Positions 22,510-25,036 of a stretch of 64,000 bases of DNA are shown one piece after another. This stretch comes from Rhodococcoides fascians NBRC 12155 = LMG 3623. GTDB taxonomy: Bacteria; Actinomycetota; Actinomycetes; Mycobacteriales; Mycobacteriaceae. A program made the position numbers and the translations under genes. The notes below the pieces were generated by a model. It was not told the origin of the DNA. It made no database searches and worked only from the letters and a program-made list of their open reading frames with translations. Location: contig NZ_BCWW01000001.1 of NCBI RefSeq assembly GCF_001894785.1, positions 310,001 to 374,000 on the forward strand, in the 5' to 3' direction. Numbering within the stretch: the first letter of the stretch is position 1; each line of letters starts with the position of its first letter.

Positions 22510-23064
22510 TCAGCTGGGTAGTACGGGATCGAGCACGGCGACCAGGGCGTTCAGTTCAATGCACGGGTCGTACCGTGGCGCGTGAACCTGACCATCGGTC
22601 AGCAGTGTCGCTCGAATCAGATGAGGGCCTGCAGTGAAGGCGAGGCCGCAATTAAGGGCCGAGTCGGAGGAGACCTGTTGATACTGGGTGGCATTACGGG
22701 TGCCCACCCGAACTGGCCGAAGCCGGTCGAAGTAGCTCGGGTCGTCAATGAAGTCCAATGTCTCGAGTCCGGAGATCAACGACACGTAGTACTGGTTGTC
22801 TGGAGGGCTTTCCTCCCAGCCGCAAATTTTGAATCCGTTTTGATCGCGGCCGAACACCCCCGATTCCTTGGAGTCGACGTTCAATCCCGCCTGCTCGATG
22901 GCGTCGTCGGGGACGGTGCATGGATCCCACGGCGTCGGTGCGGCGACGGCGGTGTTGGTCGTCGCGATGACTTCGGGGACTGCGGTACCGTCTTGGCCCG
23001 TCGAACACGCGGTGAGCAGGAGCAGACCTACTGCGATTGCCTCCCATCGACTGCTTCGATGCAT
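22510..23064 (-). CDS. DUF3558-type lipoprotein
   Basis: 184 residues from the ATG at 23064. The first 20 residues end in the lipobox LLTAC, so Cys is lipidated and the protein anchored outside. The mature part shows the DUF3558 pattern: WDPCTVPDDAIEQAGL near the start, KICGWEE in the middle and a paired late Cys (YDPCIELN). Family members are mycolate-bacterial envelope lipoproteins of unknown role. It is transcribed away from the retron-like locus. Confidence 0.8.
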   Translation of the reverse strand: MHRSSRWEAIAVGLLLLTACSTGQDGTAVPEVIATTNTAVAAPTPWDPCTVPDDAIEQAGLNVDSKESGVFGRDQNGFKICGWEESPPDNQYYVSLISGLETLDFIDDPSYFDRLRPVRVGTRNATQYQQVSSDSALNCGLAFTAGPHLIRATLLTDGQVHAPRYDPCIELNALVAVLDPVLPS

Positions 23065-23191
23065 GTTCGCTGTCCTTTCCCAAGAGCCCATCTACGGGTT
23101 GGACGCAACGGAGTCGGCGCTGGTTCCGTTCACCTGCTCCGGACTCGCGAGCTCCGGCTCGTAATCGAGCAACTCACGAGAACTTCAAAAC

Positions 23192-23203: not shown

Positions 23204-23259
23204 TCGAACTAGCGAGTCATCCCGCTGACAGATCGGCCTCGATTTGGCATGGTGGACGG

Positions 23260-23421
23260 ATGCAGCGGCGCGTGGGCGAGAGTTGGTCCGCGGGACCGGT
23301 CTCAGGGGTAACCCCTGGGTACATATTGAGAATCGAGCACTGCGTCCGAAGCTGGTCTGCACGCTACGCGTGCTTGGCAGCTCCGAGGACGAAAGATTTC
23401 GGTCGCCGCGCACCGCTGCAT
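23260..23421 (+). ncRNA. Candidate retron msr-msd non-coding RNA
   Basis: A structured segment of about 162 nt ending 32 nt before the RT start. The ends form an imperfect long stem: 23260-23279 (ATGCAGCGG, GCG, GGCGA) pairs with 23403-23421 (TCGCC, CGC, CCGCTGCAT), the position and form of retron a1/a2 repeats. Inside, in msr position, are two small perfect hairpins: 23285-23297 (GGTCC-GCG-GGACC) and 23303-23317 (CAGGGG-TAA-CCCCTG). An unpaired stretch follows, then a long hairpin at 23343-23391, stem segments CGTCC, AGCTG and GCACGC with a TAC loop, in msd position. All structure is read by eye; the branching G cannot be fixed. Confidence 0.7.
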
Positions 23422-23453
23422 TTTCTCGCTCGAGACCCGTTGGAGCGATCGAC

Positions 23454-24722
23454 GTGAACGACCGCGAACTGTCTCCGCGCGCCGCCGCAACCCTGGCTCG
23501 TTTGGCTGCAGACGCAGAGTGGGCGCAATCGGGGCTCGAGGAGGCGTTCTCTCGGTTCATGCCGGCCAAGGCCTCGCGGTTGGCCGATCGAATCATCGAC
23601 CTGTACCCGAGTCCGCCGTTCGACGAGGCGTCGATATTCGTTCTGCTGCGAGATCTTCCGTTGATTACGCAGCCGTCGAAGTCGTCACAGCGATCGCCGA
23701 TACGTGGCCGTGTCGTACCCTGGCGGTTCGAGGTGCCTCGCTACGAGACGACGGGCCAGCTCGCGCAATCACTGCATCTGACCATTTCCGAAATCGAGTG
23801 GTTTGCCGACCTGCAGGGGAGGCTGCGTACTGCGCCGTTCCCATTGCAGCACTATCGATCTGCTCGTCTCGACAAACGTCAGGGCATTCGACTGCTGGAG
23901 GTGCCCAAACCGCGCCTGCGCGAGATTCAGCGAAAGATACTGCACCGCATCCTGGATCGCATTCCGCCACATCCCGCCGCGCACGGTTTTCGTAAAGGGC
24001 GCAGCCCCCGCACGTTCGCGACGCCCCACGCCGAGCGTGAGGTGGTGGTCTCGGTCGACTTACGTCGTTTCTTTCCGTCCATCGGGTTCGATCGAGTGGT
24101 GGCGATCTTCGAGGCCGTCGGCTATCCCAGAAGAGTTGCGGCGAATCTTGCCGCGCTGTGCACAACGGTCACCCCGGCCGGCGAATTGACGGGCATGGAC
24201 CGCGCGACGGCGGCGAGGCTTCGCACCACCCACTTGCCGCAGGGCGCACCGACGTCGCCCGCCCTGGCCAACCTGGCTGCCCGCCAACTCGATATTCGAG
24301 CTGCCGGGCTCGCCCGCACCATGGGTGCCCGGTATACCCGCTACGCCGACGACCTGGCGTTCTCCGGTTCGGCAGACCTCGACGTCGACAAGTTGCTGTG
24401 GGTGGTGTCCCAGATCGCGAACGACGAGGGCTTCACGATTCATCCCGACAAAACCCGAGTGCGGCGCGCTCATCAACGCCAACAGCTCACCGGGCTGGTG
24501 GTCAATGCGTGGCCCGCAGTTCCGCGAGAGGAGTACGACAACCTCCGCGCGTTACTGCACAACTGCATCGGTAGCGGTGCAGCCCAACAGAATCGGGACG
24601 ATCTGACCGACTTCCGTGCCCATGTGTACGGACGTATCGCGCGGATCGGCGAGACCAGCGAGACACGTCGTCGGAAATTGCTCGAGATGGCAGCCCGGGT
24701 CGATTGGGAGGGATCCGGGTAG
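23454..24722 (+). CDS. Retron-type reverse transcriptase
   Basis: 422 residues from a GTG at 23454 with GGAGCG 6 nt upstream. An N-terminal region of about 130 residues precedes the RT fold. RT core: RLLEVPKPRLREIQRKIL (motif 1 area), AAHGFRKGRS (174-183), VVVSVDLRRFFPSI with the first catalytic Asp (about 201), LPQGAPTSPALANL (260-273), RYTRYADDLAFSG with YADD (297-300), and region-Y-like LTGLVVN (344-350), a retron hallmark. The pattern and N-terminal extension resemble myxobacterial Mx162-type RTs; no maturase, endonuclease or integrase domain is fused. All three catalytic Asp are present. The frame stays open upstream to a TTG at 23244, but that part covers the structured RNA and does not look like protein. 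Confidence 0.88.
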   Translation: MNDRELSPRAAATLARLAADAEWAQSGLEEAFSRFMPAKASRLADRIIDLYPSPPFDEASIFVLLRDLPLITQPSKSSQRSPIRGRVVPWRFEVPRYETTGQLAQSLHLTISEIEWFADLQGRLRTAPFPLQHYRSARLDKRQGIRLLEVPKPRLREIQRKILHRILDRIPPHPAAHGFRKGRSPRTFATPHAEREVVVSVDLRRFFPSIGFDRVVAIFEAVGYPRRVAANLAALCTTVTPAGELTGMDRATAARLRTTHLPQGAPTSPALANLAARQLDIRAAGLARTMGARYTRYADDLAFSGSADLDVDKLLWVVSQIANDEGFTIHPDKTRVRRAHQRQQLTGLVVNAWPAVPREEYDNLRALLHNCIGSGAAQQNRDDLTDFRAHVYGRIARIGETSETRRRKLLEMAARVDWEGSG

Positions 24723-24760: not shown

Positions 24761-25036
24761 ATGAACGACCTGACCTTCACTATCGGGCACGAGGAATTGG
24801 TGATTCGCCAGCGGTGGGAAGTTGTCAGCATCATCAACGACATTCTCGTTGCGGTCTGGTTCATCGCCGGCAGCATCCTCTTCTTTCAGGAGAGCACGAC
24901 GGTCATCGGTACGTGGCTCTTCCTGCTGGGGAGTGTCGAACTGCTCATTCGTCCCGTGATTCGACTGGCGCGACGGGTGCATCTGACACGGATCGGGCGT
25001 GCACGAACCGCGTCCGAGAGCGACGACGACTTCTGA
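24761..25036 (+). CDS. YrhK-like two-TM membrane protein, candidate retron effector
   Basis: 91 residues from the ATG at 24761, preceded by GAAGGAG. N-terminal IGHEELVIRQRWEVVSIIND is the YrhK-family entry, then two membrane helices (about 28-46 and 50-68) and a basic/acidic cytoplasmic tail. It begins 38 bp after the RT stop on the same strand with no hairpin between, so it is probably co-transcribed. Retron Ec48 uses a two-TM protein as its toxic effector, so an analogous role is possible. YrhK proteins also occur without RTs, so it may be a bystander. Confidence 0.8.
   Translation: MNDLTFTIGHEELVIRQRWEVVSIINDILVAVWFIAGSILFFQESTTVIGTWLFLLGSVELLIRPVIRLARRVHLTRIGRARTASESDDDF

Follow-up and report, generated by a model that had tools for sequence, protein, structure and literature searches.

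Does the reverse transcriptase (RT) gene at 23454-24722 of a 64,000-nucleotide stretch of Rhodococcoides fascians NBRC 12155 = LMG 3623 belong to a retron, so that the RT and a structured RNA just upstream of it make multicopy single-stranded DNA (msDNA), and if so, what might that DNA be for? (The stretch, which we call the window, is positions 310,001 to 374,000 of contig NZ_BCWW01000001.1, and all coordinates are counted from its first nucleotide.) An earlier note, made from the sequence alone, had named the locus a candidate retron. We conclude that it is very probably a two-part retron (an msr-msd RNA and its own RT, with no effector found beside them) that would make msDNA from a likely branching guanosine, G23280. 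What gives the locus its interest is that a partner toxin gene was looked for next to the RT and not found.

A conserved RNA fold precedes the reverse transcriptase gene

The msr-msd RNA (23258-23424, which is the extent of the match to our covariance model) and the RT gene both lie on the forward strand, as do all of the parts of the locus described below. We identified the RNA by its fold, its covariation, and its co-occurrence with the RT. In the predicted fold, the a1 arm (23258-23279) pairs with the a2 arm (23403-23423), which is seen both in the fold and in the same-genus alignment; the outermost pairs are at 23258/23423, and GGGCGA at the inner end of a1 pairs with the first bases of a2. 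Between the arms are msr hairpin 1 (23284-23298), msr hairpin 2 (23301-23319), and the msd hairpin (23343-23391), which has three stacked stems. Hairpin 1 and the msd hairpin are found in the fold and in both of our alignments, and 100% of the cells of hairpin 2 (a cell is one pair in one sequence) are paired in both alignments. The arrangement that the earlier note had read from the letters is present in the predicted fold: the inverted repeat (23260-23279 with 23403-23421), the small hairpin at 23285-23297, the long hairpin at 23343-23391, and the retron order of a1, msr stem-loops, msd hairpin, and a2. Its second small hairpin (23303-23317) is the perfect core of hairpin 2.

The minimum free energy of 23258-23423 is -87.3 kcal/mol, as compared to -66.35 +/- 4.59 kcal/mol in shuffled sequences (z = -4.56), and none of 200 dinucleotide shuffles matched the native RNA. 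Rfam gave no match for the RNA, either at the gathering score or at E values up to 10.

The earlier note had suggested aligning orthologous loci to look for compensatory changes, and in both of the sets that we aligned, pairing is preserved by changes on both sides of the pairs. The same-genus alignment contains 28 distinct sequences and 48 pairs (1344 cells) and was compared with 500 shuffles and with slid controls. In this alignment, 13 of the 48 pairs have changed on both sides (mean of 5.5 in shuffles, 3-5 in slid controls), 94.9% of the cells are paired (34.5-43.5% in slid controls), and four of five measures are above all 500 shuffles. The 27 further pair types are not above the shuffles, as 86 of the 500 reach 27. 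The wider alignment contains 62 sequences, namely 17 of the 29 same-genus sequences and 45 of 46 hits from a covariance model that we built on 29 upstream regions; 12 same-genus near-duplicates and the broken copy from genome G020 were left out. The outer a1/a2 pairs were excluded from the count because the alignment is poor at its ends. Of the 36 core pairs, 24 have changed on both sides (mean of 15.0 in shuffles, 10-17 in slid controls), and such changes occur in 220 cells (mean of 63 in shuffles, 34-56 in slid controls). Furthermore, 90.6% of 2222 cells are paired (35.4-46.0% in slid controls), although this percentage is biased towards the structure, because the reference is the predicted fold of the RT-adjacent RNA itself and the hits were picked with a model of the same structure. 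The both-sided changes are a stronger sign of structure than the percentage paired. The inner a1/a2 pairs covary in the 62 sequences (one pair is C-G in 28 and U-A in 23), and the weakest part is the basal msd stem, with 70.3% of its cells paired.

Three loci from three species (L002, L006, and L012) have a 33-nucleotide GC-rich insertion between the msr hairpins, flanked by TCTCAG-type repeats. Elsewhere, the RNA of these loci has changed little, so this spot seems to tolerate extra sequence.

The reverse transcriptase is of the retron type

The RT has 422 amino acids and begins at a GTG codon (23454), 32 nucleotides past 23421; its frame is intact up to the stop at 24722. The motifs LPQGAPTSP (residues 261-269), YADD (297-300), and LTGLVVN (345-351), as well as the distance from the RNA, are as the earlier note had described them. 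RVT_1 is the sole Pfam domain in the protein, which agrees with the note's claim that no maturase or integrase is fused to it, and the RT is the sole RVT_1 match in its genome. Among the hidden Markov models (HMMs) of PADLOC, RT_other gives 587 bits, RT_outgroup 557 bits, and RT_XIII 322 bits (residues 93-416). In NCBIfam, the retron models St85 (168 bits), TIR (163 bits), and Ec67 (158 bits) and the non-retron models for group II introns (64 bits), Drt2 (36 bits), and Drt3a (21 bits) all score below their cut-offs.

We also built a tree of 25 sequences, including four labelled retron RTs, nine RTs above the group II cut-off, and no sequence from a diversity-generating retroelement (DGR). The nine group II intron RTs form a separate clade with a bootstrap of 100, and our RT falls on the side of the labelled retron RTs; a placement with group II intron enzymes, which the earlier note had named as counting against a retron, is thus not what the tree shows. 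Support for the branching order among the retron RTs is weak, and the RT's own family is not resolved as one clade in this tree. The predicted structure of the RT has a pLDDT (predicted local distance difference test) score of 89.3. When we compared it to solved structures with Foldseek, the top 18 were all retron RT chains; group II and DGR enzymes appear from rank 19 on, with DGR structures below most of the retron ones. A group II intron RT was considered and rejected (TIGR04416 gives 63.8 bits against a cut-off of 300, and the clade is separate at 100), as was a group II intron maturase, for which the Pfam scan of the RT found no domain.

The conserved regions X and Y can also be compared. 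Region Y has LTG (345-347) as its variant of VTG; as described in PMC4244168, VTG occurs in 47% of retron RTs and the I/L variant in 26%. Region X has FATPH (188-192) as compared to NAXXH, so that the A and H are present and the N is substituted. The same source gives NAXXH in 59% of sequences, with H in 100%, A in 87%, and N in 62% (PMC4244168). H192 is invariant in our 63 aligned RTs.

Most of the matching retron RT structures align from about residue 83-98 to the C-terminal end. Outside of this matched fold is an N-terminal extension (about residues 1-89, 23454-23720), whose 70-90 residues are helical and in which W23, L28, P52, and P55 are at least 90% conserved in the 63 RTs. The extension has no Pfam match above the cut-off, and when folded alone it gives a low-confidence model (pLDDT of 67.4). 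Given the HMM scores, the tree, and the predicted fold, the protein is a retron RT and not a group II intron enzyme. The retron anatomy of the locus has the strongest support that sequence evidence could give.

A likely branch point and a predicted start of the cDNA

A23279 and G23280 are invariant in the 29 same-genus sequences and at least 90% conserved in the 62. This places a conserved G in an A-G step directly past the a1/a2 duplex, which marks a likely branch point. Opposite it, the GG at 23401-23402, which adjoins a2, is invariant in all 62 sequences and probably provides the first template bases for the complementary DNA (cDNA). Because of the A-G step past the duplex and the opposing invariant GG, we predict that G23280 is the primer and that the cDNA starts near 23401-23402. 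Known priming guanosines are described as lying in TAGC, CAGA, CAGC, GAGC, or ACGC (PMC6868368), and the context of the candidate here is GAGA. G23280 is the likely branching G, and the locus likely makes branched msDNA.

The tip of the msd hairpin

The msd tip of the window (23359-23373) is GCACGC-TAC-GCGTGC, and its DNA copy would contain GC-GTA-GC, that is, a GNA mini-hairpin. More generally, a T-N-C loop is present at the tip in 59 of the 62 aligned sequences, in which all four bases are found at N (C in 36, G in 14, T in 6, and A in 3), and the core GC-TNC-GC is present in 55 of 62, with 20 distinct tips. (L075, L079, and L144 deviate from the tip pattern, and the Burkholderia tips described below also differ.) The DNA copy of this core is predicted to read GC-GNA-GC. 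GNA loops that are closed by G-C pairs are described as mini-hairpins with a high melting point and resistance to nucleases (PMC4686876). This pattern hints at selection on the DNA strand, which would fit msDNA. The sequences that share the TNC tip are related to one another, and loop energies are uninformative about GNA because the energy tables rate nearly all triloops alike.

A scan of the genome for the tip found one exact match, which is the locus itself, and three matches with one mismatch, as compared to 11 for a reversed control pattern. As there are fewer matches than in the control, no genomic target is indicated.

The RNA and the reverse transcriptase occur together

Within the genus, the RT is present in 33 of 37 genomes (in one of these, G031, as a 40-residue fragment alone) and the RNA in 32 of 37; the genomes without the RNA are the four that lack the RT and G031. 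The RT of R. erythropolis is about 56% identical to ours. Across the family, we found the RNA in 96 of 301 genomes, or about a third, at E values up to 0.01, in a search with stricter filters that may have lost weak matches. RT_other matched in 114 of the 301 at E values up to 0.001 (98 at 180 bits or more and 16 at about 50 bits or lower). In all 96 RNA-bearing genomes, the RNA is followed on its own contig and strand by an RT that scores 300 bits or more, and in 94 of them (all but G003 and G020) the RNA starts less than 800 nucleotides 5' of the RT match. The remaining two of the 98 genomes, G070 (in pieces) and G298, with RTs below 190 bits, have no RNA. Similarly, among 49 loci that were all outside of the training set, 46 have the RNA at E < 1e-4, 5' of the RT and on the same strand; those without it are L080 (E = 0.88), L143, and L147.

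A phylum-wide draw of 396 genomes gave five RT_other matches above 490 bits, three of them within the family; of the other two, L144 has the RNA (42.7 bits) and L143 does not. Actinobacteria have been listed as putative retron hosts (PMC6868368). Outside of the phylum, RNA matches in Burkholderia are weak (20.7 and 18.4 bits, E = 0.015 and 0.045), and a match in Methylobacterium (E = 0.064) is on the wrong strand. The Burkholderia loci, L153 and L156, are plasmid records whose RTs are 48-49% identical to ours, with a weakly similar RNA upstream in which hairpin 2 has the same shape and the msd tip is different. These copies raise the possibility of transfer between phyla. Plasmid copies that include the RNA are also found in Tsukamurella and Dietzia. 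Of 32 RT matches in phage records, the 25 listed all have less than 35% identity.

Some copies are broken. In G003 (L073), the RT is frameshifted and the RNA is intact, while in G031 (L074), a 40-residue remnant of the RT persists and the RNA is gone; these are separate decays. In G020 (L146, G020:C69:114000-130000), an RNA remnant lies about 10 kb from a partial RT, so the retron of this one species appears to have been interrupted.

A stable chromosomal position and purifying selection

In 22 same-genus genomes, the RT and gyrB are on one contig. The RT is 72-135 kb from gyrB and in the same orientation in 19 of these, and 309-331 kb away in the opposite orientation in the remaining three. 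Across 24 genomes, RT protein distances track gyrB distances (Mantel r = 0.80 for nucleotides and 0.70 for protein; none of 2000 permutations was as high in either comparison). The RT and gyrB trees share only 4 of 21 splits, and they disagree with good support at several others; one has to allow for exchange between closely related strains or for a weak gyrB tree. The median ratio of nonsynonymous to synonymous substitution rates (dN/dS) is 0.096 for the RT (78 pairs) and 0.026 for gyrB. The RT is under purifying selection.

A search for an effector gene beside the locus

To look for an effector, we clustered the open reading frames of at least 70 codons from 39 loci and the studied locus (40 further family loci, L112-L151, were outside of the clustering). 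Across these 40 neighborhoods, from -3 to +3.5 kb, we found no common neighboring gene among reading frames of this size. The commonest family besides the RT is an alpha-galactosidase gene on the opposite strand (12 of 40). YrhK lies 3' of the RT in 7 of 40 and, in one clade, a gene with a VanW domain lies 3' of the RT on the same strand (6 of 40). The neighbors vary by clade and seem unremarkable; besides alpha-galactosidase and VanW-domain genes, they include MerR and PQQ-domain genes, among others. In the window, no PADLOC model matched three neighbors of the RT. A gene for a small YrhK-like protein (24761-25036) lies 38 nucleotides past the RT on the same strand, and a DUF3558 gene (22510-23091) is divergent from the retron; several closely related genomes have relatives of this gene close to their RT. 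In the loci that we clustered, we found no effector gene of 70 codons or more that goes with the retron. Any effector may be a gene of fewer than 70 codons, may be encoded elsewhere, or may be the N-terminal extension of the RT.

What the msDNA might do

Immediately 5' of the RNA is a promoter-like stretch (23225-23253) with CTGACA (23225-23230), 14 nucleotides, and TGGCATGGT (23245-23253); 28 of 29 same-genus sequences and 24 of 36 wider sequences have TGGCA at most 25 nucleotides 5' of the RNA. We infer that this stretch is a putative promoter. In our model, it would start the RNA at about 23258, a1 would pair with a2, and the RT would bind the msr hairpins. The RT would then extend from the 2'-OH of G23280, reading the template leftward from about 23402, to give a single-stranded DNA copy of roughly 60-80 nucleotides (its far end is not predicted) that would fold as the msd hairpin, capped by the GNA mini-hairpin. 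More speculatively, the chromosome might keep the RT-msDNA particle as a sensor or as part of a defence, with a partner encoded elsewhere or within the N-terminal extension of the RT.

Two rival readings seem improbable, to different degrees. We doubt that an active RT makes no msDNA and uses the upstream RNA as a regulator or guide, as in DRT2: the DRT2 RT has been reported in a solved complex with a non-coding RNA, and msDNA is a prediction here, but the a1-msr-msd-a2 order, the A-G at the end of the duplex, and the invariant GG argue against this, as does a Drt2 score of 36 bits versus 557-587 for the retron models. That the retron is decayed, with sequence likeness due to recent descent alone, is barely credible: broken copies do exist in G003, G020, and G031, but the 422-residue frame is intact here, the RNA shows compensatory changes, and dN/dS is 0.096.

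As to the function of the msDNA, for which the earlier note had proposed phage defence, it is quite possible, if somewhat short of an even chance, that this is the usual tripartite phage-defence retron, with an effector that is encoded away from it and that RT-msDNA holds inactive until infection. The RNA and RT have the anatomy of defence retrons and the predicted RT fold matches the enzymes of Ec86, Eco2, Ec78, and Eco8. However, no neighbor is shared (the top family is in 12 of 40 neighborhoods) and three neighbors of the RT have no PADLOC match. Also, defence genes turn over quickly, yet this RT occupies one chromosomal place in 19 of the 22 measurable genomes. That same position near gyrB, in the same orientation, would suit a domesticated retron that plays no part in defence, which is chromosomally inherited and whose msDNA serves in housekeeping, perhaps by binding a repair protein or another DNA-binding protein; we consider this a serious contender without quite favoring it. 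The tracking of gyrB distances (r = 0.80 and 0.70), the dN/dS of 0.096, and the lack of an effector in 40 neighborhoods are in its favor, but only 4 of 21 splits agree (with well-supported conflicts), the retron is patchily distributed across the family at large (96 of 301 genomes), Tsukamurella and Dietzia have plasmid copies, and G003, G020, and G031 have decayed ones. More tentatively, this might be an effector-less chromosomal retron lineage of Rhodococcus, Gordonia, and their relatives in which the tip of the msDNA is selected as a DNA object. It is a similarly tentative idea that the DNA does the work, rather than a guarded toxin, for instance as a long-lasting decoy, or as a handle to which a DNA-binding protein would attach. 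Against a role for the DNA tip, recognition of the RNA loop may be the source of the tip pattern instead.

Comparison with known retrons

The best HMM matches, RT_other and RT_outgroup of PADLOC, are protein models with no typed effector in their labels. The closest typed model is that of type XIII (RT_XIII), which at 322 bits is far under RT_other. The nearest solved RT folds are those of Ec86 (Eco1) and Ec67 (Eco2), with 24-29% identity over the RT part. The RNA of Ec86 has the order a1, msr, msd, a2, and the RNA here has the same order. Unlike the locus here, Ec86 is described as having been solved with an effector, and Eco2 is described as a fusion of RT and Toprim (PMC12405507).

According to a 2025 paper (PMC12548924), phage defence by retrons had been studied in E. 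coli, Bacillus subtilis, and Salmonella enterica alone. Retrons that are kept in a lineage without a neighboring effector are much less understood, and the family described here is a soil-bacterial example. It offers a covarying RNA model, a precise prediction of the branch point, and a pattern of conservation that points at the DNA strand. What is distinctive is the combination of no neighboring effector and stable chromosomal residence. The nearest in kind are the vertically inherited retrons of myxobacteria, to which we liken the family by description and not by sequence. As described in PMC6868368, Mxa1 (Mx162) and Sau1 (Sa163) also have an RT with an N-terminal extension and are also kept across a bacterial group, where they are thought to be vertically inherited; Mx162 differs in having an msd of 162 nucleotides and a CAGC context, as compared to about 60-80 nucleotides and GAGA here, both of which are predicted.
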